64,000 nucleotides of DNA from Microglena sp. YARC. Lineage: Eukaryota; Chlorophyta; Chlorophyceae; Chlamydomonadales; Chlamydomonadaceae. The DNA is taken from contig CM039463.1 of NCBI GenBank assembly GCA_022414725.1, positions 32,877,579 to 32,941,578 on the forward strand, in the 5' to 3' direction. Below are positions 1 through 54,760 of the stretch, piece by piece. The position numbers and the translations under genes are program-made. The notes beneath the pieces were generated by a model. It was not told the origin of the DNA. It ran no database searches and was given only the letters and a program-made list of their open reading frames with translations. Every line of letters starts with the position of its first letter. The stretch's first letter is position 1.

Positions 1-342
1 GCTCGTTGGGTTTGTCAATGCTCCCGATTATGATCGGGAGGACTGTGGGTATTCTGAGTTTGGTTTTTCTCAATCATTCGTTCGTTGGGTTTGACAATGC
101 TCCCGATTATGATCGGGAGGACTATGGGTATGCCGAGTACAAAAAAAAAAAAAAAAAATGCTGAGTACATGTTTTCTGAATCATTCGCTCGTTGGGTTTG
201 TCAATTGTCAATGCTCCCGATTATGTTGGGAGGACTGTGGGTATTCTGAGTTTGGTTTTTCTCAATCATTCGCTTGTTGGGTTTGTCAATGCTCCCGATT
301 ATGATCGGGAGGACTATGGGTATTCTGAGTTTGGTTTCTCTA
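1..342 (+). repeat. Satellite array of 78-79-bp units (sense orientation)
   Basis: Each unit holds a hairpin core CTCCCGATTATGATCGGGAG followed by GGACTGTGGGTATTCTGAG and CAATCATTCGCTCGTTGGG. One unit has a poly-A run (139-159) flanked on both sides by a GAGTAC-ending direct repeat. Long ORFs across the array are a product of unit length and are not treated as genes. Confidence 0.9.
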
Positions 343-384
343 AATCTGAATCTGATTTTGAATCTGAATCTGAATCTGAATCAT
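343..384 (+). repeat. TCTGAA hexamer microsatellite
   Basis: Short imperfect run of TCTGAA/TCTGAT units joining the satellite array to the fold-back module. The same run, complemented, occurs at 1567-1612, and further copies occur at 20,990-21,030 and 22,222-22,260, so it marks every array/module junction. Confidence 0.85.
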
Positions 385-414
385 TTGCTTTACCAACCTA
401 TTTGTCTTCCGCAG

Positions 415-814
415 GGTCTACAATGACAGTACCGTGGAAGTAAAACTCCAATCAGACGGAAAGGATTTGGGATGCGGCGTCATGGACGAATGGACCAAGG
501 AGCGCCAGGTGCCAATGAACATCGAAGTCGTTGTTGATGGACCAGACTTCTATGTTACGGCTACGCACGGTCACTGGTTGAGGTTTCGCGGCGAATGCAG
601 GCATATGTGCGGAGCAGATGCATTCTGGTCGACACTCACCCTTGCGGAAGTCAAGACAGCCCAGTTGCTTGAAGTCACTAGCATTCTGAGGCCAATGTTA
701 GGAGCCCTATCATGGATACCAGTTCACATTCAGGCTCTTGGGTTGGTTGTTGACAATGCGCAGCAATCCTGTCAGGGTCGGCGAGGGCGAATTTATCGCC
801 GACAAAGAGCTTGA
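415..814 (+). pseudogene. Exon-like ORF of the fold-back module, left arm (unknown protein)
   Basis: The reading frame opens just after a good 3' splice-site-like sequence (TTTGTCTTCCGCAG, ending at 414), so it may be an internal exon rather than a gene with its own start; the first ATG is at 434. I do not recognise the protein. It is rich in Trp, His and Cys (for instance HWLRFRGECRHMCG) without a motif I can name. Four copies exist in the window: this one, 1245-1550 minus, 21,083-21,358 plus and 21,789-22,169 minus. Two lack the two codons after the Cys-Gly pair, and the frame degenerates after about 125 codons. Confidence 0.45.
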
Positions 815-1244
815 GGAAACTAGGGCCTGGGTTGAGACAAGCGAAGGAAAGCTCAGGAGCGATTTCGAGGAGTTTGGTCCTAGCGACAGGAGGACGTCAC
901 CTCGATGTACACCAAAAGGGCCTTCACCTGACGCCGGTAAGAGAGCAATCGAACGGACTGTACTGCTGCACCGTGGCTCAGGTTAAATTTTCAAATCTGA
1001 CAGGTACATTTCGAATGTTACGTACGCGGTGGGATGTACACCGTTCGAAACAACCATTGTGTGCTGGCCGCACTTGCCGCTTTCAATTTCGATAGGATAT
1101 TGCGTAACTTCTGCACTCTTTACATTTCCTACAGCCTCCGCAAAGAAGTCAGGAAAGGCGCGACGAGGTCAGCTTCCTACAATCAACGAAGAGGACAGAT
1201 CGCTGACAACTTTGTAAGGTCATCGTATTAAAATTGTTATCTCC

Positions 1245-1550
1245 TTATAGCCCAGCTCCTGACATGGGCCTCCGAATGCTAGTGACTTCAAGCAACTGGG
1301 CTGTCTTGACTTCCGCAAGGGTGAGTGTCGACCAGAATGCTCCGCACATATGCCTGCATTCGCCGCGAAACCTCAACCAGTGAGCGTGCGTAGCCGTAAC
1401 ATAGAAGTCTGGTCCACCAACAACCACTTCGATGTTCATTGGCACTTGGCGCTCCTTGGTCCATTCGTCCATGACGCCGCATCCCAAATCCTTCCCGTCC
1501 GATTGGTGTTTTACTTCCACGGTACTGTCATTGTAGACCCTGCGGAACAC
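1245..1550 (-). pseudogene. Inverted partner of the fold-back exon-like ORF
   Basis: Reads on the minus strand as a near copy of 415-700, again just downstream (on its strand) of a pyrimidine-rich AG. It ends in a different tail at 1245. Together with 415-700 it forms an inverted repeat of about 300 bp around a 0.5-kb spacer. Confidence 0.45.
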
Positions 1551-1564
1551 AAATAGGTTGGAAA

Positions 1565-3425
1565 AGCAAATGATTCAGATTGAGATTCAGATTCAAAATC
1601 AGATTCAGATATAGAGAAAAACTAAACTCAGAATACACAGAGTCCTCCCGATCATAATCGGGAGCATTGTCAAACCCAACGAGCTAATGAATGAGAAAAC
1701 CCAATTCGGAATACACACAGTCCTCCCGATCATAATCGGGAGCATTGACAAACCCAACTAGCGAATGATTGAGAAAACAAAACTCGGAATACACACAGTC
1801 CTCCCGATCATAATCGGGAGCACTGACAAACCCAACGAGCGAATAATTCAGAAAACATGTACTCGGCATACCCATAGTCCTCCCGATTATAATCGGAAGC
1901 ATTGTCAATCCCAACGAGCGAATGATTGAGAAAACCAAATTCGGAATACACACATCCTCCCGATCATAATCGGGAGCTCTGACAAACCCAACGAGCGAAT
2001 GATTCAGAAAACATGTACCCATTTTTTTTTTTTTTTTTTTTTTTTTTTGTACTCGGCATACCCATAGTCCTCCCGATCATAATCGGGAGCATTGTCAAAC
2101 CAAACGAACGAATGATTGAGAAAAACCAAACTCAGAATACCCACAGTCCTCCCGATCATAATTGGGAGCATTGACAAACCCAACGAGCGAATGATTGAGA
2201 AAACCAAATTCGGAATACACACAGTCCTCCCGATCATAATCGGGAGCAATGTCAAACCCAACGAGCGAATGATTGAAAAAACCAAATTCGGAATACTCAC
2301 AGTCCTCCCGATCATAATCGGGAGCATTGACAAACCCAACGAGCGAATGATTCAGAAAACATGTACTCGGCATACCCATAGTCCTCCCGATTATAATCGG
2401 GAGCATTGTCAAACCCAACGAGCGAATGATTGAGAAAACCAAATTCGGAATACAAACATCCTCCCGATCATAATCGGGAGCACTGACAAACCCAACGAGC
2501 GAATGATTCAGAAAACATGTACTCGGCATTTTTTTTTTTTTTTTGTACTCGGCATACCCATAGTCCTCCCGATCATAATCGGGAGCATTATCAAACCAAA
2601 CGAACGAATGATTGAGAAAAACCAAACTCAGAATACCCACAGTCCTCCCGATCATAATTGGGAGCATTGACAAACCCAACGAGCGAATGATTGAGAAAAA
2701 CCAAACTCAGAATACCCATAGTCCTCCCGATCATAATCGGGAGCATTGTCAAACCCAACGAGGGAATGATTGAAAAAACCAAATTCGGAATACACACAGT
2801 CCTCCCGATCATAATCGGGAGCACTGACAAACCTAATGAGCGAATGATTCAGAAAACATGTACTCGGCATTTTTTTTTTTTTTTTTTTTTTGTACTCGGC
2901 ATACCCATAGTCCTCCCTATCATAATCAGGAGCATTGTCAAACCCAACGAATGAATGATTGAGGAAAACCAAACTCAGAATACCCACAGTCCTCCCGATC
3001 ATAATTGGGAGCATTGACAAACCCAACGAGCGAATGATTGAGAAAACCAAATTCGGAATACACACAGTCCTCCCGATAATAATCAGGAGCACTGACAACC
3101 TTACGAGCGAATGATTCAGAAAACATGTACTCGGCATTTTTTTTTTTTTTTTGTACTCGGCATACCCATAGTCCTCCGTATCATAATCGGGAGCATTGTC
3201 AAACCCAACGAACGAATGATTGAGAAAAACCAAACTCAGAATACCCACAGTCCTCTTGATCATAATCGGGAGCATTGTCAAACCCAACGAGCGAATGATT
3301 GAGAAAAACCAAACTCAGAATACCCTCAGTCCTCCCGATCATAATCGGGAGCATTGTCAAACCCAACGAGCGAATGATTGAGAAAACCAAACTCGGAATA
3401 CACACAGTCCTCCCGATCATAAAAA
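1565..3425 (-). repeat. Satellite array of 78-79-bp units (antisense orientation)
   Basis: About two dozen units of the same hairpin satellite, reading on the minus strand. Several units contain T-runs (2022-2048, 2530-2544, 2871-2891, 3138-3152), most of them flanked by a TACTCGGCA-type direct repeat. Units differ by a few bases, so the array is diverged, not freshly amplified. It ends at 3425, where the unit breaks into segment C. Confidence 0.92.
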
Positions 3426-5500
3426 AATCAATCCTAAAACCAGTCAAAGAAAACTTGATCCACCGAATGCCTAGACGGAACAGGCAAAAGGGCTAAATTC
3501 TTCTGGGCTATGACATTTCATCAGTCATGCTATGCAAGTCAAGCAGGCCTCAACTACACATCTTTGCTTTACCTATTGCAGTACTGGGTCACTAAAACAA
3601 ACCTAGTAAATAGGTAGGTGGCCGAGGTGGGCAAGAACACAGTAAAATAGAAGAACTGCAGGTGTACATGATCCATATGTCAGTGTCATGTAAAGTACCA
3701 ATCACAACATAAACACCCAACCACACTCCCGGCAAAGATTAACCAATAAACAAGGCAACCTGTTAGCAAGCAGTAACTTGGTCAACACAGGCACAAGGCA
3801 GCTAAGACTGGGCTACAATTGCAGTCTACCACTACAATGCAATTCATAACCAAACCAGACGCTATGGAAATCTTGGAACGGTAGCTAAGGATGCATGCCA
3901 TATGGGTATGTAGTACTGTCCGCCAGTACTCTGAGGCAGGTGCAGGCGGGTAACCATCATGCAGGTAGGCAGGCCTCAGGAAGGTGCAAGCGGGTGCAGA
4001 GCTGTTCGCCAGTACTCCGGCGCAGGTGCTGGCCCGGCGCGTGTCCTGGTCTGGTCTGGCAGGTGCAGGCGGGTAACCGCCATGCAGGTAGGCAGACCTA
4101 TCCAGTGCTCCGAGCGCCAGTGCTCCTGGCTATCTGCCCAGCATCCACCAGAGAAGGTGCTAGGCAGGACAGTGACAGTGAAATGCATTGCGCAAAGGGT
4201 GCGAGAATTAGAAGCAACTCGGGGTTATTCACAACCACCCGGTGCTAATGCAGATGCGCAGCAAGGCGATGCAGAAAGCGAAAGGCAAAGCAGCAGATCA
4301 TGAGAACAGAGCTGAAGTGAATTCCCATAGCAGTGAAATGCATTGCGCAAAGGGTGCGAGAATTAGGTGCAACTCGGGACCATGCAGGGCCACCCGGTGC
4401 TAATGCAGATGCGCAGCAAAGCAATGCAGGATGCGAAAGGCAATTTGCGCAAGGCATGAAAGGAGGTGAAAGCGCAAGGCATGAAAAGAGGTGAAAGCGC
4501 AAGGCATGAAGCAAACCCTTTCCGACTTATCAAAACAGTCTTTCATGCATGCGCAGCAAGGGGGGGCCCGGCAAGGGGGTCAATCAATGTACATCAAGGG
4601 GTCATGCAAAGGGGTCAAGCTGCCAGAGAAGGTGCTGGGCATGGCAATCAATGCACAGCAAGGAGTCATGCAAAGGGGTCAAGCTGCCAATCCATTGAGA
4701 AGGACACCAAGGCAGAGGCTGTGCAATCGGATGGAGACAATGTAGACATTGCTAAGGAGGAGGAGATGGAGGAGGAGGAAGATGGGGATGGGGGCATGGA
4801 GGAGGAGATTCTAGTGCAGCGATTGTACAGGCGCTGTTGTTACCCAACAAGTTAGCATTGGCCCTCTTTCTACAACGTGATAGCCTGTTCCACAATCGAG
4901 TAGACAGTATTGTGTCAGGTAGCACCATGGCGTCAGTTAGCACATGACCTGTCAGCACCAAGTGCAGAAGTTATCACCAATGGACTTGTTGGCAGCAGTG
5001 CAACATTAGCACCGTGCACAAGTTTGCACGAGTGTACTAGTTTGCCTTATCCAACACACATTTTGAGTGATTTCAGGATTCTAGGATGGCAGTTTGCAGA
5101 TTTAAGGATATAAATTTGTGTTATGTACATAATGAGGCTATGAGGTATGAAATTATGAATAATAAGTCCTGAGTTAGGAGTTATTAGTTCTGACTTGTAT
5201 AAGGTACATATAAGTTCTGAGTTGTGAGTTATACATAAGTGAGGTACACATAAGTACAGATTTCGGAGTCATAAGTACTAAGTTGTAATTTCGAACTGTT
5301 GAGTTGTGAGTTGTGAGATAAATAATTATGAGCAATGCGTTCAAGACTTTGTAAACAGCTTTCACCTTCCTCTTGACTGTCCTCTACAATTGATTTTGTA
5401 TTGGAATACTTCGAAGGAACTTTCTCTCTCTCCAAACGAGCAAATCAATGTTACAACTGAAACTGAAGGGAATAGTCTCTTTCTCCTGAATACAACAAAA
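3426..5500 (-). other. Segment C of the transposon, no convincing gene
   Basis: Non-satellite interior segment, present inverted at 16,150-18,270. It includes two internal duplications: GCAGGTGCAGGCGGGTAACC near 3940 and 4060, and a 75-bp block near 4180 and 4335. It also holds a 120-bp stretch (4685-4810) encoding an acidic Glu/Asp-rich peptide that also occurs at the end of the transposase-like gene at 25,400-25,560. ORFs of 80-130 codons exist on both strands but are not conserved in frame between the two copies' indels. Confidence 0.7.
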
Positions 5501-5687
5501 CAATCTTACAAAATAAATTGTAAGATATTTTCGTAAAATACACCAAAAAAGCAAAATCAATTAATTTGCAAAAACGATCTTACAAAATAAATTGTAAGAT
5601 ATTTTCGTAAAATACACCAAAAAGCAAAATCAATTAATTTGCGAAAACGATCTTACAATATTTATCATAAGATTTCAGTAAAATAAA
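5500..5687 (-). repeat. Subterminal 72-bp direct repeats with CTTAC/GTAAG palindromes
   Basis: Two and a half tandem units, each with a palindrome of the form CTTACAAAATAAATTGTAAG, then TTTTCGTAAAATACACC and AATCAATTAATTTGC. The same units lie inverted at 15,985-16,160. Such subterminal palindromes are plausible transposase-binding sites (inference). Confidence 0.85.
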
Positions 5688-5717
5688 AAATCCGTTCGGA
5701 AGCAGGAACGCCCATTA
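5688..5717. repeat. Terminal inverted repeat of the left transposon copy
   Basis: Thirty bases ending GGAACGCCCATTA, identical to the right end of the complete copy at 25,910-25,939 and the complement of its left end at 15,945-15,974. Confidence 0.92.
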
Positions 5718-6127
5718 ACTGCACAAACCACACACCGCACATAAAACCAAGGAACCCAAACACAACATACATTAAGGTTGCTGTTGAAGACAACTGCAGG
5801 CAAAAAGAGGTCACGAAACTCATATCCAATCTACCATATATTGTTGAGGTGATGCATGGAGTGTCAACTCAAAACAATGTCGTGCTTGTGCATTGTAGGT
5901 TGGGAAGACAACGGTCTGCAACAGTTGTTGCTGCTTATCTGATGTGGGAAAGATGCATTACGATGACAGATGCGATCAAGCACATTCAAAGGTTGAACCC
6001 CACCGCATTCCAACCAGAAGCCAACTTTAAACGGTCCCTTGAAATGTTTGAAGTTCACCTGAGGGGCAAGGTCATCCATGGCGGTGCATCCTTGTCCCAT
6101 CACGATGACAACCATGAACAAGATTAG
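5718..6127 (+). pseudogene. Dual-specificity protein phosphatase, 5'-truncated by transposon
   Basis: The frame is open from the transposon end through to a TAG at 6125. It carries the second half of a DUSP catalytic domain: a Val-Glu-Asp general-acid segment, the signature loop VHCRLGRQRSAT (Cys nucleophile and Arg of the HCx5R motif), then AYLMWER and the C-terminal helices. The family (cysteine-dependent protein phosphatases) removes phosphate from Tyr and Ser/Thr. The N-terminal third, with the substrate-recognition segment, is missing. The break falls where DUSPs usually have their 'LNC(T)' strand, so it was probably split by the transposon, with the first part left of the window. A short acidic/His tail follows the domain. 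Confidence 0.85.
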
Positions 6128-6474
6128 ATTATCGTGAACATGGAGTGAAGATGCTCCTCGTGAATTCCACTGCCCCACTCCTGGGGGGCGAGATTCCCCT
6201 TTCATAACATAAATGCCAACTTGGATGGTACTCCTCATCCGTATGCCATCATCCGGGCATGGTTCACATGAGATGGTTACAAACTTAGGGGATTGCGAAG
6301 TGGCACATCCAATATCTATCTATCTATCTAATGCACCGAGTATGCGACATGTTTCCTCCGTTCCGTTTGCTTCGATCCTGCAATGAGAAAAAATAAATTC
6401 AGGCCAAATTGAACAACTGTATAAAGCTTTGAGCTGTAAAATTATTGACCGCCGGGCTGTGTGTAATTACAATT
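6128..6474. other. Gene-free spacer with repeat fragments
   Basis: Contains a fragment of the GAATTCCACTGCCCCACTCC repeat family (6160-6205) and a short TATC microsatellite (6313-6334) followed by a sequence that recurs near 12,510. No ORF I would call a gene. Confidence 0.6.
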
Positions 6475-15634: not shown

Positions 15635-15636
15635 CC

Positions 15637-15944
15637 GTTGAATTTAAGCTACCCGTATATCCTCGAACCTATGAATTTCTTATTACACATCCGGGGGTCC
15701 GGGGGACATGTAGTAAGAAAGACAATGAATTCTCCATAGGGGTATCATAGGGGTCAACTCCCCCGGGGCTGCTGTCCTTTACGAACAGGGATTTTCTGTT
15801 CGAACTGCCTTCAGGAAGATGCCAGCTGCCCCCACAATGTCTCTGTCGCAGGTGAATTGACAGTTCTTGCAGGTGTATGTCTCTCCACACTTGTTCAAGA
15901 AACCGCACATAGGGCATGTCTGACTTGTGTAATGCTCAAGCACA
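15637..15944 (-). mobile_element. IS607-type element copy 2, distal piece (end of tnpB)
   Basis: Matches 53,338-53,645 of copy 1 base for base with few differences. It contains the last part of TnpB: the zinc-binding CKNC pair, the RuvC-III segment CDRDIVGAAGIFLK, and the stop, plus about 140 bp of conserved 3' non-coding sequence (CCGGGGGTCCGGGGGACATG, probably part of the guide-RNA end). It is cut at 15,944 by the 10-kb transposon; the rest resumes at 25,942. Confidence 0.93.
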
Positions 15945-15974
15945 TAATGGGCGTTCCTGCTTCCGAACGGATTT
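15945..15974. repeat. Left terminal inverted repeat
   Basis: Thirty bases beginning TAATGGGCGTTCCTGCTTCC, perfect complement of 25,910-25,939. Next to it lie a TCTTACGATAAATATTGTAA palindrome and two 72-bp units. Confidence 0.93.
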
Positions 15975-18270
15975 TTTATTTTACTGAAATCTTACGATAA
16001 ATATTGTAAGATCGTTTTCGCAAATTAATTGATTTTGCTTTTTTGGTGTATTTTACGAAAATATCTTACAATTTATTTTGTAAGATCGTTTTCGCAAATT
16101 AATTGATTTTGCTTTTTTGGTGTATTTTACGAAAATATCTTACAATTTATTTTGTAAGATTGTTTTGTTGTATTCAGAAGAAAGAGACTATTCCCTTCAA
16201 TTTCAATTGTAACATTGATTTGCTCGTTTGGAGAGAGAAATTTCCTTCGAAGTGTTCCAATACAAAATCAATTGTAGAGGACAGTCAAGAGGAAGGTGAA
16301 AGCTGTTTACAAAGTCTTGAACGCATTGCTCATAATTATTTATCTCACAACTCACAACTCAACAGTTCGAAAGTACAACTTAGTACTTATGACTCCGAAA
16401 TCTGTACTTATGTGTACCTCACTTATGTATAACTCACAACTCAGAACTTATATGTACCTTATACAAGTCAGAACTAATAACTCCTAACTAAGGACTTATT
16501 ATTCATAATTTCATACCTCATAGCCTCATTATGTACATAACACAAATTTATATCCTTAAATCTGCAAACTGCCATCCTAGAATCCTGAAATCACTCAAAA
16601 TGTGTGTTGGATAAGGCAAACTAGTACACTCGTGCAAACTTGTGCACGGTGCTAATGTTGCACTGCTGCCAACAAGTCCATTGGTGATAACTTCTGCACT
16701 TGGTGCTGACTGGTCATGTGCTAACTGACGCCATGGTGCTACCTGACACAATACTGTCTACTCTAGATTGGCTGTGGGAACAGGCTATCACGTTGTAGAA
16801 AGAGGGCCAATGCTAACTTGTTGGGTAACAACAGCGCCTGTACAATCGCTGCACTAGAATCTCCTCCTCCATGCCCCCATCCCCATCTTCCTCCTCCCCC
16901 ATCTCCTCCTCCTTAGCAATGTCTACATTGTCTCCATCCGATTGCACAGCCTCTGCCTTGGTGTCCTTCTCAATGGATTGGCAGCTTGACCCTTTGCATG
17001 ACTCCTTGCTGTGCATTGATTGCCATGCCCAGCACCTTCTCTGGCAGCTTGACCCCTTTGCATGACCTGGCAGCTTGGCCCCTTTGCATGACCCCTTGAT
17101 GTGCATTGATTGACCCCCCTTGCCGGGCCCCCCCTTGCTGCGCATGCATGAAAGACTGTTTTGATAAGTCGGAATGGGTTTGCTTCATGCCTTGCGCTTT
17201 CACCTCTTTTCAAGCCTTGCGCTTTCACCTCCTTTCATGCCTTGCGCAAATTGCCTTTCGCATCCTGCATTGCTTTGCTGCGCATCTGCATTAGCACCGG
17301 GTGGCCCTGCATGGTCCCGAGTTGCACCTAATTCTCGCACCCTTTGCGCAATGCATTTCACTGCTATGGGAATTCACTTCAGCTCTGTTCTCATGATCTG
17401 CTGCTTTGCCTTTCGCTTTCTGCATCGCCTTGCTGCGCATCTGCATTAGCACCGGGTGGTTGTGAATAACCCCCGAGTTGCTTCTAATTCTCGCACCCTT
17501 TGCGCAATGCATTTCACTGTCACTGTCCTGCCTAGCACCTTCTCTGGTGGATGCTGGGCAGATAGCCAGGAGCACTGGCGCTCGGAGCACTGGATAGGTC
17601 TGCCTACCTGCATGGCGGTTACCCGCCTGCACCTGCCAGACCAGACCAGGACACGCGCCGGGCCAGCACCTGCGCCGGAGTACTGGCGAACAGCTCTGCA
17701 CCCGCCTGCACCTTCCTGAGGCCTGCCTACCTGCATGATGGTTACCCGCCTGCACCTGCGTCAGAGTAATGGCGGACAGTACTGCATACCCATATGGCAT
17801 GCATCCTTAGCTACCGTTCCAAGATTTCCATAGCGTCTGGTTTGGTTTATGAATTGCATTGTAGTGGTAGACTGCAATTGTAGCCCAGACTTAGCTGCCT
17901 TGTGCCTGTGTTGACCAAGTTACTGCTTGCCAACAAGTTGCCTTGTTTATTGGTTAATCTTTGCTGGGAGTGTGGTTGGGTGTTTATGTTGTGATTGGTA
18001 CTTTACATGACACTGACATATGGATCATGTACACCTGCAGTTCTTCTATTTTACTGAGTTCTTGCCCACCTCGGCCACCTACCTATTTACTAGGTTTGTT
18101 TTAGTGGCCCAGTACTGCAATAGGTAAAGCAAAGATGTGAAGTTGAGGCCTGCTTGACTTGCATAGCATGACTGATGAAATGTCATAGCCCAGAAGAATT
18201 TAGCCCTTTTGCCTGTTCCGTCTAGGCATTCGGTGGATCAAGTTTTCTTTGACTGGTTTTAGGATTGATT
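15975..18270 (+). other. Segment C of the complete copy (inverted relative to 3426-5687)
   Basis: Same order and content as the left copy with scattered substitutions and one extra internal duplication near 17,055-17,090 (GCAGCTTGACCCCTTTGCAT). Includes the acidic-peptide stretch at 16,860-16,990 (minus strand). ORFs are present on both strands but none is clearly constrained. Probably a decayed, once-coding interior. Confidence 0.7.
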
Positions 18271-20990
18271 TTTTTATGATCGGGAGGACTCTGTGTATTC
18301 CGAGTTTGGTTTTCTCAATCATTCGCTCGTTGGGTTTGACAATGCTCCCGATTATGATCGGGAGGACTGTGGGTATTCTGAGTTTGGTTTTTCTCAATCA
18401 TTCGCTCGTTGGGTTTGACAATGCTCCCGATTATGATCAAGAGGACTGTGGGTATTCTGAGTTTGGTTTTTTTCAATCATTCGTTCGTTGGGTTTGACAA
18501 TGCTCCCGATTATGAAAGGGGGGACTATGGGTATGCCAAGTAAACAAATAAAAAAAAAAAAAAAATGCCGAGTACATGTTTTCTGAATCATTCGCTCGTT
18601 AGGTTTGTCAGTGCTCCCGATTATGATCGGGAGGACTGTGTGTATTCCGAATTTGGTTTTCTCAATCATTCGCTCGTTGGGTTTGTCAATGCTCCCGATT
18701 ATGATCGGGAGGACTGTGGGTATTCTGAGTTTGGTTTTCTCAATCATTCGTTCGTTGGGTTTTCCATGCTCCCGATTATGATCGGGAGGACTGTGGGTAT
18801 TCTGAGTTTGGTTTTTCTCAATCATTCGCTTGTTGGGTTTGACAATGCACCCGATTATGATCGGGAGGACTGTGGGTATTCTGAGCTTGGTTTTTCTCAA
18901 TCATTCGCTCGTTGGGTTTGACAATGCTCCCGATTATGATCGGGAGGACTGTGGGTATGCCGAGTACAAAAACAAAAACAAAAAAAAAACAAAAAAAAAT
19001 GCCGAGTACATGTTTTCTGAATCATTCGCTCGTTTGGTTTGACAATGCTCCCGATTATGATCGGGAGGACTGTGGGTATTCTGAGTTTGGTTATTCTCAA
19101 TCGTTCGCTCGTTGGGTTTGGACAATGCTCCCGATTATAATCGGGAGGACTATGGGTATGCCGAGTAAAAAAAAAAAAAAAAAAAAAAATGCCGAGTACA
19201 TGTTTTTCTGAATCATTCGCTCGTTGGGTTGTCAGTGCTCCCGATTATGATCGGGAGGACTGTGTGTATTCCGAATTTGGTTTTCTCAATCATTCGCTCG
19301 TTGGGTTTGTCAATGCTCCGATTATGATCGGGAGGACTCTGTGTATTCCGAATTTAGTTTTCTCAATCATTCGCTCGTTGGGTTGACAATGCTCTCGATT
19401 ATGATCGAAGGACTGTGGGTATTCTGAGCTTGGTTTTTCTCAATCATTCGTTCGTTGGGTTGACAATGCTACCGAATATGATCGGGAAGACTATGGTATG
19501 CCGAGTACAAAAAAAAAAAAAAAAAAAAAAAAAATGCCGAGTACATGTTTTCTGAATCATTCGCTCGTTGGGTTTGTCAGTGCTCCCGATTATGATCGGG
19601 AGGACTGTGTGTATTCCGAATTTGGTTTTCTCAATCATTCGCTCGTTGGGTTTGTCAATGCTCCTGATTATGATCGGGAGGACTCTGTGTATTCCGAATT
19701 TGGTTTTCACAATCATTCGCTCGTTGGGTTTGACAATGCTCCCGATAATGATCGGGAGGACTGTGGGTATTCTGAGCTTGGTTTTTCTCAATCATTCGTT
19801 CGTTGGGTTTGACAATGCTCCCGATTATGATCGGGAGGACTGTGGGTATTCTGAGCTTGGTTTTTCTCAATCATTCGTTCGTTGGGTTTGACAATGCTCC
19901 CGATTATGATCAGGAGGACTATGGGTATTCTGAGTTTGGTTATTCTCAATCATTCGCTCGATGGGTTTGACTATGCTCCCGATTATGATCTGGAGGACTA
20001 TGGGTATGCCGAGTACAAAAAAAAAAAAAAAAAAAAAAGCCGATTAATGTTTTCTGAATCATTCGCTCGTTGGGTTTGTCAGTGCTCCGATTATGATCGG
20101 GAGAACTGTGTGTATTCCGAATTTGTTATTCTCAATCATTCGCTCGTTGGTTTGTCAATGCTCCCGATTATGATCGGGAGGACTCTGTGTATTCGAATTT
20201 TGGTTTTCACAATCATTCGCTTGTTGGGTTTGACAATGCTCCCGATTATGATCGGGAGGACTGTGGGTATTCTGAGCTTGGTTTTTCTCAATCATTCGTT
20301 CGTTGGGTTTGACAATGCTCCCGATTTATGATCGGGAGGACTATGGGTATGCCGAGTACAAAAAAACAAAAAAAAAAAACAAAAAAAAATGCCGAGTACA
20401 TGTTTTCTGAATCATTCGCTCGTTGGGTTTGACAATGCTCCCGATTATGATCGGGAGGACTGTGGGTATTCTGAGTTTGGTTGTTCTCAATCATTCGCTC
20501 GTTGGGTTTGACAATGCTCCCGATTATGATCGGGAGGACTATGGGTATGCCGAGTACAAAAAAATAAAAAAAATAAAAATGCCAAATACATGTTTTCTTA
20601 ATCATTCGCTCGTTGGGTTTGTAAGTGCTCCCGATTATGATCGGGAGGACTGTGTGTATTCCGAATTTGGTTTTCTCAATCATTCGCTCGTTGGGTTTGA
20701 CAATGCTCCCGATTATGATCGGGAGGACTATGGGTATGCCGAGTACATGTTTTCTGAATCATTCGCTCGTTGGGTTTGTCAGTGCTCCCGATTATGATCG
20801 GGAGGACTGTGTGTATTCCGAGTTTTGTTTTCTCAATCATTCGTAGTTGGGTTTGTCAATGCTCCCGATTATGATCGGGAGGACTGTATATATTCCGAAT
20901 TCGGTTTTCTCAATCATTCGGTCGTTGGGTTTGACAATGCTCCCGATTATGATCGGGAGGACTATTGGTATTCTGAGTTTGGTTTTCTCT
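18271..20990 (+). repeat. Main satellite array, ~30 units
   Basis: Sense-oriented 78-79-bp units. Two types alternate: plain units, and units ending TATGCCGAGTAC followed by an A-rich run (18,547-18,564, 18,967-19,001, 19,168-19,189, 19,509-19,534, 20,019-20,038, 20,361-20,389, 20,560-20,579) and a second GCCGAGTAC-like sequence. A-runs are interrupted by C or T in several places, so they are old. Confidence 0.93.
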
Positions 20991-21082
20991 ATATCTGAAT
21001 CTGATTTTGAATCTGAATCTGAATCTGAATTATTTGCTTTACCAACCTATTTGTCTTCCGCAGGGTCTACAATGACAGTACC

Positions 21083-21358
21083 GTGGAAGTAAAACTCCAA
21101 TCGGACGGGAAGGATTTGGGATGCGGCGTCATGGACGAATGGACCAAGGAGCGCCAAGTGCCAATGAACATCGAAGTCGTTGTTGGTGGACCAGACTTCT
21201 ATGTTACGGCTACGCACGCTCACTGGTTGAGGTTTCGCGGCGAATGCAGGCATATGTGCGGAGCATTCTGGTCGACACTCACCCTTGCGGAAGTCAAGAC
21301 AGCCCAGTTGCTTGAAGCCACTAGCATTCGGAGGCCCATGTCAGGAGCTGGGCTATAA
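21083..21358 (+). pseudogene. Exon-like ORF, fold-back plus arm (copy 3)
   Basis: ATG at 21,083, open to TAA at 21,356. Same unknown protein as 415-814 up to residue ~85, two codons shorter in the middle (CGAFWSTL). Confidence 0.4.
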
Positions 21359-21788
21359 GGAGATAACAATTTGAATACGATGACCTTACAAAGTTGTCGG
21401 CGATCTGTCCTCTTCGTTGATTGTAGGAAGCTGACCTCGTCGCGCCTTTCCTGACTTCTTCGCGGAGGCCGTAGGAAATGTAAATAGTGCAGAAGTTACG
21501 CAATATCCTATCGAAATTGAAAGCGGCAAGTGCGGTCAGCACACAATGGTTGTTTCGAACGGTGTACATCCCACCGCGTGCGTAACATTCGAAATGTACC
21601 TGTCAGATTTGAAAATTTAACCTGAGCCACGGTGCAGCAGTACAGTCCGTTCGATTGCTCTCATACCGGCGTCAGGTGAAGGCCCTTTTGGTGTACATCG
21701 AGGTGACGTCCTCCTGTCGCTAGGACCAAACTCCTCGAAATCGCTCCTGAGCTTTCCTTCGCATGTCTCAGCCCACGCCCTAGTTTCC

Positions 21789-22169
21789 TCAAGCTCTTTG
21801 TCGGCGATAAATTTGCCCTCGCCGACCCTGACAGGATTGCTGCGCATTGTCAACCTCCATCCCAAGAGCCTGAATGTGAACTGGTATCCATGATAGGGCT
21901 CCTAACATGGGCCTCCGAATGCTAGTGGCTTCAAGCAACTGGGCTGTCTTGACTTCCGCAAGGGTGAGTGTCGACCAGAATGCATCTGCTCCGCACATAT
22001 GCCTGCATTCGCCGCGAAACCTCAACCAGTGAGCGTGCGTAGCCGTAACATAGAAGTCTGGTCCACCAACAACGACTTCGATGTTCATTGGCACTTGGCG
22101 CTCCTTGGTCCATTCGTCCATGACGCCGCATCCCAAATCCTTCCCGTCCGATTGGAGTTTTACTTCCAC
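21789..22169 (-). pseudogene. Exon-like ORF, fold-back minus arm (copy 4)
   Basis: 126 codons, the counterpart of 434-814. The tail frame (WIPVHIQALG...) competes with another open frame on the same strand (FIADKELEETRAW... at 21,617-21,865), consistent with a frameshifted longer coding region or with two exons in different phases. Unknown protein. Confidence 0.45.
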
Positions 22170-22239
22170 GGTATTGTCATTGTAGACCCTGCGGAAGACA
22201 AATAGGTTGGTAAAGCAAATGATTCAGATTCAGATTCAA

Positions 22240-22855
22240 AATCAGATTCAGATTTAGAGAAAAACCAAACTCAGAATACCCATAGTCCTCCCGATCATAA
22301 TGGGAAGCATTTTCAAACCCAACAAGCGAATGATTGAGAAAACCAAATTCGGAATACACACAGTCCTCCCGATCATAATCGGGAGCACTGACAAACCCAA
22401 CAAGCGAATGATTCAGAAAACATGTACTCGGCATTTTTTTTTTTTTTTTTTGAACTCGGCATACCGATAGTCCTCCCGATCATAATCGGGAGCATTGTCA
22501 AACCCAACGAACGAATGATTGAGAAAAAACAAACTCAGAATACCCACAGACCTCCCGATCATAATCGGGAGCACTGACAAACCCAACGAGCGAATGATTC
22601 AGAAAACATGTACTCGGCATTTTTTTTTTTTTTTTTGTACTCGGCATACCCATAGTCCTCCCGATCATAATTGGGAGCATTGTCAAACCCAACGAACGAA
22701 TGATTGAGAAAAACCAAACTCAGAATACCCACAGTCCTCTTGATCATAATCGGGAGCATTGTCAAACCCAACGAGCGAATGATTGAGAAAACCAAACTCG
22801 GAATACACACAGTCCTCCCGATCATAATCGGGAGCATTGACAAACCCAACGACCC
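22240..22855 (-). repeat. Satellite array, antisense, right of the fold-back module
   Basis: Seven to eight units in the minus orientation, with T-runs at 22,434-22,451 and 22,620-22,636. It breaks off at 22,855 into unique sequence containing a GCTGCCAGGCAGATGCC / CACCAGCTGCTAG hairpin. Confidence 0.9.
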
Positions 22856-23277
22856 TATTCGCATGAAGTCACCTACTAAACTGCTAGCTGCCAGGCAGAT
22901 GCCTGGTCACCAGCTGCTAGAGTGGGTGTCGGACCTAAGCCCGGCACCGTTACTGATACAGCTATAGGCTGTATCATTACATTCCCCCCAATCCCTGGTA
23001 TTCTGTACCCAGAATTCCTGGGATTCCACAACAAAGTCATAAGGAGTAAGCCAGACAAATATTCCCGTGGAGAAGAAAAGTAGGGGGAAAGCAATCCTAA
23101 AACCAGTCAAGGCGTAGGTATGACATCCGTGAAAAACTGTCTGAACAGTATCCAAAGCTCTTCTTGCATGCATCCGCTGATGCAATGGACAACAAGAAGA
23201 CTAATCTTCCTCAGTCACGCCACTTCTCACATACAAAGAAGACCGCAGGAGGTGAACTTTCTAAAGACACGCATCAT

Positions 23278-23433
23278 GTGTGAGTACAAATACAGCGCAT
23301 GTAGGACATGTCCTCCCGATCATAATCGGGAGCATACACAGTATTTAAAACTTGAAATGATTACTTAACAAAAATAATGCTAATATTCTGACTTCATGTT
23401 TCCTTCTATGTTAACTCAGGATTATTCTCCCAG
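23278..23433 (+). other. Candidate intron in the transposon gene, containing a satellite core
   Basis: GTGTGAGTAC at the 5' end and TTCTCCCAG at the 3' end; removal joins two conserved pieces in frame at a His-Gly pair typical of the family. A single hairpin core (TCCTCCCGATCATAATCGGG) lies inside at 23,310-23,332. Confidence 0.65.
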
Positions 23434-23959
23434 GGAAGAGGCTTCATTGGTTATTGGGCTTTGCCATTCTACTCGCAGTCCATCAATCTGACTGTATCAT
23501 GCTTCCAACATTTCTTCAACCGGGTCCTTGAAGAAGAGGGGCAGCTTCCACCGTATTGCTTCTTGCAAATGGACAACGCGGCAAAGGACAACAAGAACGC
23601 TTTCATGTTCGCATACTTGTCCTTGTTGGTTGAGATGAACTGGTTTGAGGAAGTGTACGTCCATTTCCTCCCTCCCGGACACACACATAGCAATCTTGAC
23701 CAAAAGTACTCTGTGATCTCGCAAGTGTTAAAGAACATGGAAGTGTACACCCTGGCCCATCTGATGGGCATTGTTGGTAACTTATTCAAGAGAATGGGCC
23801 CTTACACAAGGCAAGACGTCGTGACCTCTATAGGGGACTTCTCCGCTGTCCTCCTAGACAACGTTTACAAGTTGTTCGGTCATGCCACTAGCACCGTCAA
23901 AGGAGTCAATCGCCGTTTACAAGCATTCAAGATAACGAAAGGTCCCAACGGGAGAGTCG

Positions 23960-24242
23960 GTAAGAATACTTGATATACTGATATTTACAAATTAAATGCT
24001 ACCGTGCGTGTATGTACTGTCTGGACAATGCTCCCGATTATGCTCGGGAGGAATATGGGTGTGCCATGTCCTCATTGATTTACATGTACAGTCTTCAATA
24101 GAAATTAAATGATACAAAGGAAGTTGTACCTAGGACCTAGGATGTATTATCCAAGGGATGCTCCGAGTATAGTCGGGAGGAATATGGGTGTCCTAAATGA
24201 TTCACTAATATACAATACATGTTTGCACACCAACAATTGCAG
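23960..24242 (+). other. Intron in the transposon gene, with two degenerate satellite units
   Basis: Donor GGTAAGAATACT, acceptor CACCAACAATTGCAG. Splicing keeps the frame (GRVG then VYYKEYDE). Hairpin-type units with GGGAGGAATATGGGTGT lie at 24,028-24,070 and 24,160-24,200. Confidence 0.8.
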
Positions 24243-25599
24243 GGGTCTATTACAAGGAGTATGACGAGTCAGGATCTTGGAGAGGACAGTGGGACAATGA
24301 CGCTGAACCTATTTACGTCCTCCAAGGCTTTCCCACTGGTGGACACCAGAACAGTATTTAAGGAAGCCCCCGAGATCAAGATTGAAGAGCTCGAGAATAT
24401 CGAGGCAAACTGGGCGGCTGTCTGGAAGACTATTCATAACGAGAAGCCCGGAGTTGACGTCCTTTGCAGGCCACATGGCGATGGTCCTGTACAAACCGCC
24501 GGTGACGACCGTGCAGGACCCGTAGCTGATGTCTGTGTACGACACGCAGCGGAGGACCTTCTAGAACCAGAAGCCGATGACCAGCAGCAGATGGATGAAC
24601 CAGCAGCCCGATGGCCCATCCCCATGCCCAGACCTTCAAACATATTGCCGAGAAGCTTCGTGAAACTTGGGAAGCCAGCAATAAGTGGTGGACTGATTTC
24701 TTCAACGTTGAGAAGAGTTATTGGAGCACTCAAACCAGATGATGCTGTGACTGGGGAGTACCGAAAGACCAACATTTTGTCGACTTCCCATCGGAGTTGT
24801 CAGCAACCAGTCGTGTTCTGACAGTCTGAGAAATCAATGGCCAAGCGCTTGATAGCAGCATTGGATGACTTGTCCATGGATGTGTCAGACCTTTTTACCT
24901 GCAAGTAACGAGATTGCCAAGACTATGAAGGTCGCACACACTTTGGAGACTAATATGGAAAGGCCAGAGGAGGAGGATGTGTTGTACTTATATTCTTCAC
25001 AAGGGACGAAGCCGGATAGAAGAATAGCCTACGAGCCCACTACTGATTTGGTTGTTGGTCATGTCGCTGTGGTCAAGGTACAAATGGATGACTCTAGCGG
25101 ATTGAGAGGATGGGACGTGGTGGAGGTCAAATCACTACCAGTGAATGGAGAAGTGGAATGTGTGTATTAAAGCCCTTGTACTCTGGGGCTCAGAAGTTGG
25201 TGTACACTGAAACACAATACCCAACTTGGCCAGAAGATTGGATGGACCACAAGCTTGTGCCTATTACCGTGGGGGTTAGGAGAAAAGCAACATGGCACGG
25301 GCGATATTCCCATTGACGCATTTTCAATTTAGCTGCGAACCCACCAAGGGTATGAAGATCCAGAGAAAGTACCACACAAGCATGCTCCTAGCTTGTCAAT
25401 CCATTGAGAAGGACACCAGGGCAGAGGCTGTGCAATCGGATGGAGACAATGCAGACATTGCTGAGGAGGAGGAGATGGAGGAGGAGGAAGATGGGGATGG
25501 GGACATGGAGGAGGAGAAGGAGGAGGAAGAGGAGGACGAGGAGGGGGGGGAGGAGGAGAGTAAGAGTTGGACACATAGCGTTTTTTTACTAAATTAGGA

Positions 25600-25909
25600 A
25601 AATTAAATGAATTATACTTACGATTTTTATTGTAAGATGTAAAAGCTGAATTCTGCCTGCCGACTTATAACCGTCCGCTTTCCCTTTATTTCTTACAATT
25701 ATAATTGTAAGACACGAATTGATGTTAACACCTTTTGTTACAAAATATGGCATTTCAACGTTGTAACATTCGCAATCTGTACGTTTCTCCGTCTTTCAAG
25801 CTCATTTTAAGCATATTTTGTCAAAATTGACTACAATCTTACGATTTTTATCGTAAGATTGCATTTGGAAAGCATCAAAAGACCCTTAAAAAAGTGATTG
25901 TAAGATTGG
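25600..25909 (-). repeat. Right subterminal region with CTTAC...GTAAG palindromes
   Basis: At least three palindromes: CTTACGATTTTTATTGTAAG (25,618), CTTACAATTATAATTGTAAG (25,693) and CTTACGATTTTTATCGTAAG (25,838). The same motif type with other spacing is at the left end. Candidates for binding sites of the element's protein. Confidence 0.85.
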
Positions 25910-25939
25910 AAATCCGTTCGGAAGCAGGAACGCCCATTA
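25910..25939. repeat. Right terminal inverted repeat
   Basis: Perfect 30-bp complement of the left end, followed by the CA target duplication (25,940-25,941). Confidence 0.93.
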
Positions 25940-25941
25940 CA

Positions 25942-27110
25942 TGCAAGAACACTGTCCCGTACTCTGCACACTTCTCCTTCAGCCGATTGAACAGCACAGA
26001 GTGGTTCAAAGTCAGCATCTGACGGGCAACCTTGGTTGTCAGCTCCCATTCAGCACTGATTGTCATCTTCGCCGTCTCCAATTGAGGTACCAACAACACA
26101 TCGTAGCGAGCGGCCAAGAAATTTGTTGTCTGGTCCCTAAACTCTTTCTTGAGGTAAAAAATTATCTTCCGAATGCGAATCATATGCTCTTTTATCTTCA
26201 TCCTCTCTTTTGATCGTAAGGTTTTTCTCAGTATCCAACCTTGACTGCAGCTTGTCATGAACCAGCAGGAGTTTGACAAGGTCGGATGCCTGTCCCTGAC
26301 CAAGCATGAAGGATTCCTCATTCTCTGGTGAGTACGTGACCATTGTTTTGCGGACGCCTGGGTCGATGGATGCAGTTGCAACCTTGACTGGATGGACAGG
26401 CTTCCGCTCTGCCCTCCTGTCCGTGGCAGCGACAGACAAGACGAGGAAATATTCGCCGAAGCGGATTTGTGGACCTTTGGATCGTGGGTCGGTTTTCCTC
26501 AGGCATCAACTTATGGAGTTGTTTGCTACCGAAGTAGCGCATGTGCCCAATATGTCTTTTAAGATGAAGAGTTTGTCGCCATCCTTGGAAACGTTCTTCT
26601 GATCCATCTCAATGGCCCAACCCCTCTCAAGCTCTGTCTTCTTCCGTCTGAACGGAGCTGAAAACTGCTTGATGTTACCTGCTTTCAGATTCGAAAAGCA
26701 AGCCTTGATGTTTGCCAAGGCAGCCTTGATTGCGCTTTGGCGTACGCTTTTGGGGCACTGAAGCAACCATTGGCGATTCTTGAAGTACGGTTTGGCATCT
26801 TCCCCTCCCCCCTCACCTTGTTCGTCACATACCTGTCTCGAATTCGGAAGACAGACTTGTGAGTGCTCCGACGCCCAACCGTGCTGCCACCGCCTTGTTG
26901 TACATGAACCGGCTGCACCCCGCAAACTCTGACAGCATCGATTTCTGAGCCTTGGTTGGGTTCAGCTTCAGCTTTAAGGTCCTCAACTTGGGTTTGGCAT
27001 TTGACTTTGTAGCGTCTTCGACCGTTCCATCGGTAACTATATACTTGAACGATGGACATGAGGTCTTTTCCAAGCTCGTCTTCAGGGCTCCGTCTTGGTG
27101 ATCGAGAACG
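25942..27110 (-). pseudogene. tnpB: TnpB/Fanzor-like nuclease, copy 2, interrupted and frameshifted
   Basis: Carries the RuvC-I segment (ASIDPGVRKTMVTY near 26,350) and the RuvC-II region (LLVPQLETAKM near 26,090) but no continuous frame: shifts near 26,205-26,235, 26,500, 26,780 and 26,860 relative to copy 1. At the position where copy 1 has a TAG (54,464) this copy has CAG (26,759 region). The last part of the gene is at 15,774-15,944, behind the 10-kb insertion. TnpB proteins are RNA-guided DNA nucleases; this copy cannot make one. Confidence 0.9.
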
Positions 27111-29018: not shown

Positions 29019-30342
29019 ATGATTTCAGTGGAAATAAATAACCACATCTTGATACGGGTCAAATGTATGGAACACAAGTGGTATTGGAGTTTATTGAGCT
29101 CAAACCCCAATATCACATGGGATATCATCGAATCCAATCCCAACAAACCATGGGATTGGTACTGGATCAGCAGAAACCCCAACATCACACTAGATATTAT
29201 ACAAGCCAACCCAGATAAACCATGGGACTGGTTCTGGATTAGCAGAAACCCTACAATAACGATTGATATTGTCATTACAACCCCCAGTAAACCTTGGGAT
29301 TGGGGTGGGTTGAGCATAAACCCCAACATCACATGGGAGATTATACAAGCCAACCCAGATAAACCATGGGACTGGTATTATATCAGCAGAAAACCCTACA
29401 TCACGTGGGAAATGATCGAAGCCAACCCCGACAAACCGTGGAATTGGTATTGGATCAGCAGAAACCCATGCATTAAATGGGATATTGTCATTACAAACCC
29501 AGACAAACCGTGGGGACTGGGTGGATTGAGTTCACACCCGAACATCACCACTAGATATTATACAAACCAGCCCTGACAAACCATGGGATTGGTTTAATAT
29601 CAGCATAAACCCCAACATCACATGGGAGATTATACAAGCCAACCCAGATAAACCATGGGACTGGTTTTTGATCAGTAAAAACCCCAACATCACATGGGAG
29701 ATTATACAAGCCAACCCAGATAAACCATGGGACTGGTTTTTGATCAGTAAAAACCCCAGTATCACATGGGATATTATACAAGCCAATCCAGATAAACCAT
29801 GGAACTGGAACTGGATCAGCAAAAACCCTGTCATAACGATGGATATTATCGAAACCAACCCAGACAAACCGTGGAATTGGGGTGGAATGAGCGCAAACCC
29901 CAATATCACGTGGGAAATTATACAAGCCAACCCAGATAAACCATGGGACTGGTTTTTGATCAGTAAAAACCCCAGTATCACATGGGATATTATACAAGCC
30001 AATCCAAATAAACCATGGAACTGGAATTGGATCAGCAAAAACCCTGTCATAACGATGGATATTATCGAAACCAACCCAGACAAACCGTGGAATTGGGGTG
30101 GAATGAGCGCAAACCCCAATATCACGTGGGAGATTATACAAACCAACCCAGATAAACCATGGGGCTGGTATGAGTTGAGCAGAAACCCCAATATGTTGCT
30201 ATCTTCCCAAGACATATGTGATATCATTCGTAGATACAGATCAGCAAGAACTATACAAAAAATATGGCGCCATGTCAATACTAACCCAAGTTATAATGCA
30301 TGTCAACACAGACTCTATAGGGAATATAATGAAATGGTTTAA
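29019..30342 (+). pseudogene. NPDKPW tandem-repeat protein, giant-virus type, frameshifted
   Basis: About 22-residue repeats of the form NPDKPWDWYWISRNPNIT followed by W(D/E)II(Q/E)A; roughly 17-18 units. ATG 29,019, first frame ends at 29,576, the second continues from about 29,580 to 30,342 after a one-base slip in ATCACCACTAGA. Ends in a basic segment (RRYRSARTIQKIWRHVN) resembling an IQ-like helix. From memory such repeats are abundant in mimivirus-related genomes; function unknown. Within 29,640-30,150 two blocks of about 240 bp are almost identical, so recent repeat-array duplication is clear. Confidence 0.88.
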
Positions 30343-31368: not shown

Positions 31369-32439
31369 TTAAACGTGTTCACATGAACACCTCTGAAAAG
31401 ACTCTCCATCTCGGGAACAACAATTTATTATTTCACTCCATCCATTTTTCAAGTACGTCAACGAAGTGAGTCCTTCCAGCGGTGATATGTCGTCCACGTC
31501 GGTGCCCTCCATGTTCAGATGAACCAACGAAGTGAGTCCGGCAAGCGGTGATATGTCGAGCACCTTGATCCGGCGACAAGACGAAATGGAGCCGGACATC
31601 GGTGAGATGTCTTCGAGCTTGTATTTGAGATGCGAAATGTCGAGGTGAATCAACGAATTGATACCGGACAGAGATGATAGGTATTCCACGTCGGTGCCCT
31701 CCATGTTCAGGTGAATCAACAAAGTGAGTCCTGCCAGCGGTGATAATAGGTGTTCGCCCACCCGTGTGTACGCCATGTTCAGATGAACCAACGCGGTGAG
31801 TCCGGACAGCTTTGATATGTCTGCGAGTTTGTTTCCGATATGCGAAATGTTGAGGTGAACCAACGCATTGAGTCCTGAAATCGCTGATAATGGGTGTTTG
31901 TCCACGTACGTGAGGTGCGAAATATCTAGGTGAATCAACGAATTGAGACCGGACAGCGGTGATATGTCGGCCACACGTGTGTGCGACATGTTCATGTGCG
32001 TCAACGAATTGAGTCCGGACAGTTGTGATATGTCGGTCACGTAGGTGTGCGACATGTTAATGTGCGTCAACGAAGTGAGTCCGTACAGTGGCGATATGTC
32101 GGTCACGTAGGTGTTCGACATGTCCAGGTGAACCAACGCAGTGAGTCCGGACAGCGACGATATGTCTTGGATATTGTCTTCGATAGCCGACATTGATTGG
32201 TAGGGTACGTATTCCACCCGATTGACACCGATTTTCAACTCTTTGAGCCTGCAAATGCGTGATAATGCGTATTCCAAACTGTTTTAATGTCTTAAGTGGA
32301 TCCTTGTGACACACCGGGGTGCGGCGCATCTCCACTGTTTGCAAACGAGAGGCACTTGTTTGAGGTGGGATTCGTTCGAAATCGCATTAGATAGAATGAT
32401 CTCCAATACATCTTCATTGATTTCTTCAAACGAACTCAT
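31369..32439 (-). pseudogene. F-box / leucine-rich repeat protein with an in-frame TAA
   Basis: From ATG 32,439 the first 51 codons form an F-box-like motif (INEDVLEIILSNAISNE then VCKQWRC). Codon 52 is TAA; the same frame then runs 302 codons through about twelve 23-residue LRRs of the form SGLTALVHLDMSNTYVTDIS. F-box proteins link substrates to SCF ubiquitin ligases, and LRRs bind the substrate; giant viruses often carry such adaptors (general knowledge). Either the TAA is a nonsense mutation, or the LRR part is separately initiated. The stop lies inside a shared repeat block, so the C-terminus may be replaced. The ATG overlaps the stop of the upstream gene as ATGA. Confidence 0.85.
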
Positions 32440-35000: not shown

Positions 35001-35228
35001 CCTCTCTGAGTCCGCAGCTGAATTCCACTGCCCCACTCCGTATAAAATGTTTATCAAACGGCGCAAGCAATGTTCAACTTTGTTATGCCAGAAAATGGTG
35101 AACGAGATGTCAAAGGCCTGATAAATAGCTAATGCATCTCGTTGTGATTTCGGGGTGATTGTATGCGCAAACAAGGTATTGGGGTCATGGTTCAAGTTCA
35201 ATTGTTTTAAGTAAACACGCTCCCCCAT
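34980..35228 (-). CDS. Hypothetical protein, C-terminus replaced by repeats
   Basis: ATG 35,228 (MGERVYLKQLNLNHDPNT). About 65 residues of ordinary composition, then a tail translated from the CCACTGCCCCACTCC and TGTTCACATGAACAC repeats. Overlaps the ankyrin gene's end by 22 bases on the same strand. Confidence 0.45.
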   Translation of the reverse strand: MGERVYLKQLNLNHDPNTLFAHTITPKSQRDALAIYQAFDISFTIFWHNKVEHCLRRLINILYGVGQWNSAADSERCSCERV

Positions 35229-53335: not shown

Positions 53336-53479
53336 CCGTTGAATTTAAGCTACCCGTATATCCTCGAACCTATGAATTTCTTATTACACATCCGGGGGTC
53401 CGGGGGACATGTAGTAAGAAAGACAATGAATTCTCCATAGGGGTATCATAGGGGTCAACTCCCCTGGGGATGCTGTCCT

Positions 53480-54760
53480 TTACGAACAGGGATTTTCTGT
53501 TCGAACTGCCTTAAGGAAGATGCCAGCTGCCCCCACAATGTCTCTGTCGCAGGTGAATTGACAGTTCTTGCAGGTGTATGTCTCTCCACACTTGTTTAAG
53601 AAACTGCACATAGGGCATGTCTGACTTGTGTAATGCTCAAGCACATGCAAGAACACTGTCCCGTACTCTTCACACTTCTCCTTCAGCCGATTGAACAGCA
53701 CAGAGTGGCTCAAAGTCAGCATCTGACGGGCAACCTTGGTTGTCAGCTCCCGTTCAGCACTGATTGTCATCTTCGCCGTCTCCAATTGAGGTACCAACAA
53801 CACATCGTAGCGAGCGGCCAAGAAATTTGTTGTCTGGTCCCTAAACTCTTTCTTGAGGTAAAAAATTATCTTCCGAATGCGAATCATCTGCATTATTATC
53901 TTCATCCTCTCTTTTGATCGTAAGGTTTTCTCAGTATCCAACCTTGACAGCAGCTTGTCATGAACCAGCAGAAGTTTGACAAGGTCGGATGCCTGTCCCT
54001 GACCAAGCATGAAGGATTCCTCATTCTCTGGTGAGTACGTGACCATTGTTTTGCGGACGCCTGGGTCGATGGATGCAGTTGCAACCTTGTCTGGATGGAC
54101 AGGCTTCCGCTCTGCCCTCCTGTCCCTGGCGGCTACAGACAAGACGAGGAAATATTCGCCGAAGCGGGATTTGTGGACCTTTGGATCGTGGGTCGGGTTT
54201 TCCTCAGGCATCAACTTATGGAGTTGTTTGCTACCAAAGTAGCGCATGTTGCCCAATATGTCTTTGAAGATGAAGAGTTTGTCGCCATCCTTGGAAACGT
54301 TCTTCTGATCCATCTCAATGGCCCAACCCCTCTCAAGCTCTGTCTTCTTCCGTCTGAACGGAGCTGAAAACTGCTTGATGTTACCTGCTTTCAGATTCGA
54401 AAAGCAAGCCTTGATGTTTGCCAAGGCAGCCTTGATTGCGCTTTGGCGTACGCTTTTGGGGCACTAAAGCAACCATTGGCGATTCTTGAAGTACAGGTTT
54501 GGCATCTTCCCCTCCCCCCTCACCTTGTTCGTCACATACCTGTCTCGAATTCGGAAGACAGACTTGTGAGTGCTCCCGACGCCCAACCGTGCTGCCACCG
54601 CCTTGTTGTACATGAACCGGCTGCACCCCGCAAACTCTGCCAGCATCGATTTCTGAGCCTTGGTTGGGTTCAGCTTCAGCTTTAAGGTCCTCAACTTGGG
54701 TTTGGCATTTGACTTTGTAGCGTCTTCGACCGTTCCATCGGTAACTATATACTTGAACGA
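53480..54760 (-). pseudogene. tnpB: TnpB/Fanzor-like RNA-guided nuclease, one nonsense codon
   Basis: Two in-frame parts separated by a single TAG at 54,464. N-terminal part: LRTLKLKLNPTKAQKSMLAE and GCSRFMYNKAVAARLG, the usual TnpB start. C-terminal part of 314 codons (residues counted from 54,424): RuvC-I ASIDPGVRKTMVTY with Asp120; RuvC-II VPQLETAKM with Glu215; zinc site Cys270/Cys273 (TCPMCSF) and Cys285/Cys288 (CKNC); RuvC-III CDRDIVGAAGIF with Asp293. All catalytic residues are present. Copy 2 has CAG at the TAG position, so this is one substitution from open. The N-terminal start is unclear: no ATG between the tnpA overlap and MLAEF. TnpB/Fanzor use an RNA from the element's 3' end to cut DNA. 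Confidence 0.93.

Follow-up and report, generated by a model that had tools for sequence, protein, structure and literature searches.

A DUF7869-encoding transposon with 4-bp target site duplications in Microglena sp. YARC and its probable link to the Sola superfamily

The stretch analyzed here, 64,000 nucleotides of Microglena sp. YARC DNA (hereafter, the window) located on a contig that we denote C2, contains a terminal inverted repeat (TIR) DNA transposon that interrupts a tnpB-like gene and carries a gene with the Pfam domain DUF7869. The element, its ends and the site of its insertion are the following:

15946..25938, + strand: entire element (9,993 bp), with internal rearrangements; interpreted as non-autonomous
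15946..15974, + strand: left TIR, 29 bp, AATGGGCGTTCCTGCTTCCGAACGGATTT
25910..25938, - strand: right TIR, 29 bp
15942..15945: left target site duplication (TSD), ACAT, the 4-bp length being supported by 27 other end pairs
25939..25942: right TSD, the same ACAT as in the left flank
53336..54145: paralog of the insertion site without the element, inside a tnpB/Fanzor-like gene on the - strand

The inverted ends, which begin AATGGGCG, are perfect over 29 bp counted from AATGGG, and a third 30-mer match to the end, of which none is expected in shuffled sequence, lies at 5,688-5,717 of the window. Joined together with a single TSD, the flanks align with the paralog at 53,336-54,145 at 97.7% identity over 811 bp, with one gap opening, and the empty site, AAGCACATGCAAG, is found at 53,639. 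The target is a tnpB-like gene (disrupted copy at 15635-15945 and 25943-26442) that represents a second copy of part of the tnpB/Fanzor-like gene at 53483-55312 (- strand), which spans two open frames, HTH_OrfB_IS605 followed by Cas12f1-like_TNB. Both the perfect inverted ends and the clean insertion relative to an uninterrupted tnpB copy had been claimed in an initial annotation of this locus, and both were borne out. The locus thus displays what is expected of a TIR cut-and-paste element, namely, perfect or near-perfect TIRs and, as detailed below, a target duplication of constant length with an empty site; the element is a TIR DNA transposon and the insertion is real.

The length of the duplication had to be revised. 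In the initial annotation, it was taken to be 2 bp and the terminus to be TAATGGGCG, a reading that implies an unknown superfamily and to which the single site in the window lends itself; however, ACAT is present on both sides of the element, and other copies, in which the 2-bp duplication should recur, yield a different length. The first 25 bases of the end produce 671 matches in the 568-Mb genome, and among the first 100 of these, all 27 neighboring plus/minus end pairs separated by at most 16 kb, enclosing 2.1-14.5 kb each, were used to read the TSD. The duplication is exactly 4 bp in 21 of the 27 pairs, against a chance expectation of about one 4-bp match in 256 pairs, and one further pair shows a 9-bp duplication inside a CTTAC tandem array, that is, at least 4 bp; for the remaining pairs, the values are 3 bp (one pair), 1 bp (two) and 0 bp (two, one of these being ATGC/ATGT). 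The duplicated sequences are varied (AAAT, TGTT, CCAG, GAAG and ACAC, among others). Among 30 loci, the base preceding AATGGG is most often T (15 loci), followed by G (8), A (5) and C (2); 8 loci retrieved with a query already containing the T were excluded from this tally. Because this base varies, the T in front of AATGGG belongs to the target and lies outside the element. In view of the 27 end pairs and the variable preceding base, we rejected the reading of the element as an unknown superfamily defined by 2-bp duplications and TAATGGGCG termini, the likelihood of which is now negligible.

The DUF7869 gene of the element comprises the following parts:

23107..23265, + strand: transposase exon (matched part, from tblastn with relatives; exon end approximate), first Asp codon at 23179-23181 (ADAMDNKKT)
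23434..23961, + strand: transposase exon, DUF7869 (PF25273), ends approximate; second Asp at 23572-23574 (QMDN), third Asp at 23698-23700 (GHTHSNLDQ)
24200..25459, + strand: C-terminal transposase exon or exons, ends approximate (tblastn with P0001 and P0002), with an in-frame stop and frame changes

The domain, already suggested in the initial annotation, was confirmed by a match in frame at 23,461-23,970 with E = 2.7e-34 and 118.9 bits (Pfam cut-off 26). Searches with relatives (tblastn) extend the gene to 23,107-25,459, its 3' part being interrupted by in-frame stops and shifts of frame; residues 1-125 of protein P0022 and 1-294 of P0030 (including the WQPFAKC motif) have no tblastn match in the window. 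Because the upstream exons lack a match and the 3' frame is broken, the window copy is best interpreted as a non-autonomous derivative, so that the designation "complete" holds for its ends and fails for its gene. A fuller copy, L080, spans 9.1 kb on contig C1 (C1:21,966,189-21,975,295) and is the sole element that matches P0022 from residue 37 among the 18 elements compared, three of which were covered only in part. Alignments of L080 with the window copy in the right part reach 98.6% identity over 968 bp and 97.0% over 1,883 bp; as L080 also contains at least one in-frame stop, we do not call it active.

The AlphaFold2 model of a relative shows a predicted RNase-H topology with three conserved Asp residues, as would be expected if the suggestion of an RNase-H fold with three acidic residues were correct; the third acid is Asp in all 34 proteins that contain the GHTH motif. 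An AlphaFold2 model of P0022 was weak (predicted local distance difference test, pLDDT, 59.0) and was set aside. Genome-wide, 150 of 518 DUF7869 candidates were scored in the Pfam search, all above the cut-off, and the same search detected no DUF7869 in 14 control genomes. Of the 21 hits examined on C1:1-73.4 Mb, 10 are flanked within 15 kb by two oriented ends (0.3% for random positions), and 16 have at least one oriented end within this distance (random, 1.6%). The predicted topology, the conserved Asp triad and the position between oriented ends together make DUF7869 very likely the transposase core of the element, and the transposase role initially proposed for this domain stands at that strength.

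The family includes a second subfamily, one copy of which, at C1:445,150, is bounded by 29-bp ends AATGGGCGTTCCTGCTTCCCGGCCGATTT and flanked on either side by CATT. The open frame at 4482-6317 of the second-subfamily copy L094 is 98.1% identical to the metagenome protein P0003 over 569 residues and 84.8% identical to the EukProt protein P0001 over 572 residues; P0001 and P0003 therefore probably come from the same species as the window or from a close relative.

Fuller copies contain a second gene on the strand opposite to the transposase. This gene is common to L080, L086 and L094 (second subfamily), L082 has its last exon, and no match was found in the other 15 of the 19 loci compared. The last exon, in which L080 and L094 share 38% identity where they can be aligned, contains one segment that weakly matches DNA methyltransferase models (NCBIfam, E = 3.5e-4 for L080; PHROGs, 2.2e-4 for L094; PADLOC, 0.018-0.052 for both), with motifs that we take to be those of an amino-methyltransferase. 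In a genome scan for this exon, 110 of 443 candidates were scored; on C1:1-73.4 Mb, 14 of the 20 methyltransferase-like exons are located at most 3 kb from a correctly oriented left-type end (chance, about 0.2% per hit), 9 of the 14 at 686-687 bp from it. An open frame of 1,184 amino acids around one such exon was rejected because it runs through a stretch of N. Searches of the PDB with the accessory exons produced nothing usable. A pattern-based scan of viral contigs, which may miss distant relatives and may omit records of this genome, confirmed no relatives of this exon, of the 29-bp end or of the transposase; a similar scan of prokaryote genomes, in which distant relatives may also be missed, confirmed none of the transposase, and a fold search against viral models yielded nothing at E 0.001 or better.

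With two genes in the fuller copies and the DUF7869 gene broken in the window copy, DUF7869 might be suspected of being a passenger in an element moved by another protein. This is very improbable, given that DUF7869 is retained in two subfamilies and combines the predicted RNase-H topology with the conserved Asp triad, whereas the second gene has a last exon that resembles a methyltransferase. Several observations have to be weighed against the interpretation of the element as a whole, with DUF7869 as its transposase core. The fold was modeled for a relative instead of the window protein; the model has no Foldseek match at E 0.001 or better, the first row for the better model is an Argonaute (E 0.085), with unrelated proteins mixed in and DDE enzymes ranking low, the VIA-align Z is below 8, in the range where the tool warns of common arrangements, and no sequence match to solved structures is better than E 0.66. 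Protein P0009 has Gly in place of the first Asp, P0006 lacks the second motif, and the GHTH motif is absent in 10 of 44 proteins, mostly EukProt gene models that seemingly skip an exon. Five of the 21 DUF7869 hits examined on C1 are without an exact end at a distance of 15 kb or less (for one of the five, hit 449975, the variant ends AATGGGCGTTCCTGCTTCCCGGCCGATTT were found), and the full 4-bp duplication is absent in 5 of the 27 end pairs, which may in part be explained by ends joined from different copies. The methyltransferase-like matches are weak, those to NCBIfam falling below the curated cut-off, the exon has no Pfam match, and no ParB-like domain was detected by Pfam in the accessory exons of L080, scanned apart.

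Other features of the element and a second family copy were mapped as follows:

15991-16012, 16065-16086, 16139-16160: three left subterminal palindromic repeats, candidate transposase binding sites
25617-25638, 25692-25713, 25838-25859: three right subterminal palindromic repeats, plus one more motif, on its own, some 41 bp away from the end
18274..20993: 78-79-bp minisatellite array, with an inverted second array at 22257-22852
21083..21358, + strand: open reading frame (ORF) fragment of no known function, with an inverted duplicate at 21789-22169
21789..22169, - strand: inverted duplicate of the ORF fragment, 126 amino acids, no Pfam match
1..5717, - strand: second family copy, in inverse orientation, truncated by the start of the window; long alignments show about 90% identity with the first copy

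In each of the 15 elements covered with both ends, the motif CTTAC(A/G)AT or its complement is found 9-11 times, every occurrence falling in the 400 bp next to an end and none farther inside; 3 further elements were covered without one of their ends. Because they are confined to the terminal 400 bp, the palindromes are likely, judging from sequence, to be transposase binding sites. The 126-amino-acid ORF is also present as an inverted duplicate in the second window copy (434-772 and 1254-1520); of the 19 loci compared, 14 contain the fragment and 11 contain it in both orientations. L080, in which a shorter minisatellite array is present, lacks the fragment. The 78-79-bp minisatellite also occurs at positions 1-3420 of the window, and CCCGATTATGATCGGGAGGACT has 60 matches in the window at up to 2 mismatches, including those at 23309 and 24033 between the transposase exons. 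Elsewhere, a lone end, AATGGGCGTTCCTTCCTCCCAGAGGATTTTTTG, at 43431-43470 resembles the end of the element; no partner was found for it in the window by a 12-mer search with 2 mismatches, and it may represent a truncated copy or else a third subfamily. Outside the element, repeat proteins of ISKNP-type, leucine-rich and ankyrin repeats are encoded at 29668-30342, 31369-32277 and 35207-36928; such repeat proteins are often seen in DNA derived from giant viruses.

Under the mechanism that we propose, the DUF7869 protein would act as a transposase with three catalytic aspartates (DDD), located in (I/A)D.MD, QMDN and GHTH...DQ of an RNase-H core. It would bind both the 29-bp TIRs and the subterminal palindromes, excise the element and join it to a 4-bp staggered cut; repair of this cut would leave a 4-bp duplication whose sequence is not fixed. 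In addition, fuller copies encode the opposite-strand protein with the methyltransferase-like segment. The window copy, which kept its ends but no longer has the second gene or the upstream exons of the transposase, was presumably mobilized in trans.

We consider the DUF7869 protein to be a DDD transposase of a cut-and-paste family that is most likely Sola, with Sola1 the nearest. The initial annotation stated that no established superfamily fits; yet Sola is described as having a DDD transposase and a 4-bp TSD (PMC10741241), and here the third acid of the triad is Asp and the TSD is 4 bp. We file the element under Sola because the DDD transposase, the 4-bp TSD without fixed sequence and the opposite-strand methyltransferase-like gene match the Sola descriptions; membership is probable on this indirect basis. 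A separate DDD superfamily with a 4-bp TSD, related to Sola by the RNase-H fold alone, is somewhat unlikely: the name DUF7869 was not found in the open-licence literature searched and AATGGGCG was not met in the published descriptions compared, but parallels in Sola have been published for each of three features, the 4-bp TSD, the DDD triad and the methyltransferase-like gene on the opposite strand. Distinctly unlikely, in our judgment, is an extended version in which a DUF7869 superfamily separate from Sola employs its own methyltransferase to mark the palindromes CTTACRAT/ATYGTAAG, controlling access of the transposase or hiding the element from host silencing.

What appeared surprising at the outset, a 2-bp duplication and the lack of a fitting superfamily, is gone; what remains is the function proposed for DUF7869 and the probable link to Sola. 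This Pfam domain gains a testable function, that of a transposase catalytic core, the target duplication is corrected to 4 bp, and the probable link to a named superfamily would make it possible to mask DUF7869 annotations as transposons. Self-methylation by transposons becomes experimentally approachable through the combination of such a transposase and a methyltransferase-like gene on the opposite strand.

Among the known systems with a 4-bp TSD, Kolobok (PMC9587614) and piggyBac (PMC7351741) were rejected because they target TTAA, in contrast to the varied targets here. Ginger1 and Ginger2 share with the present element the 4-bp TSD (in most), TIRs and an integrase-like RNase-H core, but have ends of the form TGTNR, and Ginger1 targets CCGG/CCGT (PMC2836005), unlike the AATGGG ends and varied targets observed here; Ginger was rejected on these grounds. 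Sola2 of Dictyostelium and Polysphondylium is closer in having 4-bp TSDs, A/T-rich in that case, short TIRs and, in some families, a mostly deleted transposase; however, Sola2 carries Fanzor1 as cargo, whereas in the present case the window copy inserted into a tnpB/Fanzor-like gene (PMC3627910 for Sola2). The Sola1 element of Ectocarpus, Sola1-1_Ec32, encodes a DNA methyltransferase on the opposite strand (PMC12477816) and resembles the present family in the DDD transposase, the 4-bp TSD (general for Sola) and the methyltransferase-domain gene opposite the transposase, which here is methyltransferase-like by weak matches. It differs in size, 21.5 kb compared to about 7-10 kb in the fuller copies here, and in a ParB-like domain that was not found here. 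In the giant Ectocarpus families generally, transposase genes are often broken, implying movement in trans (PMC12477816).

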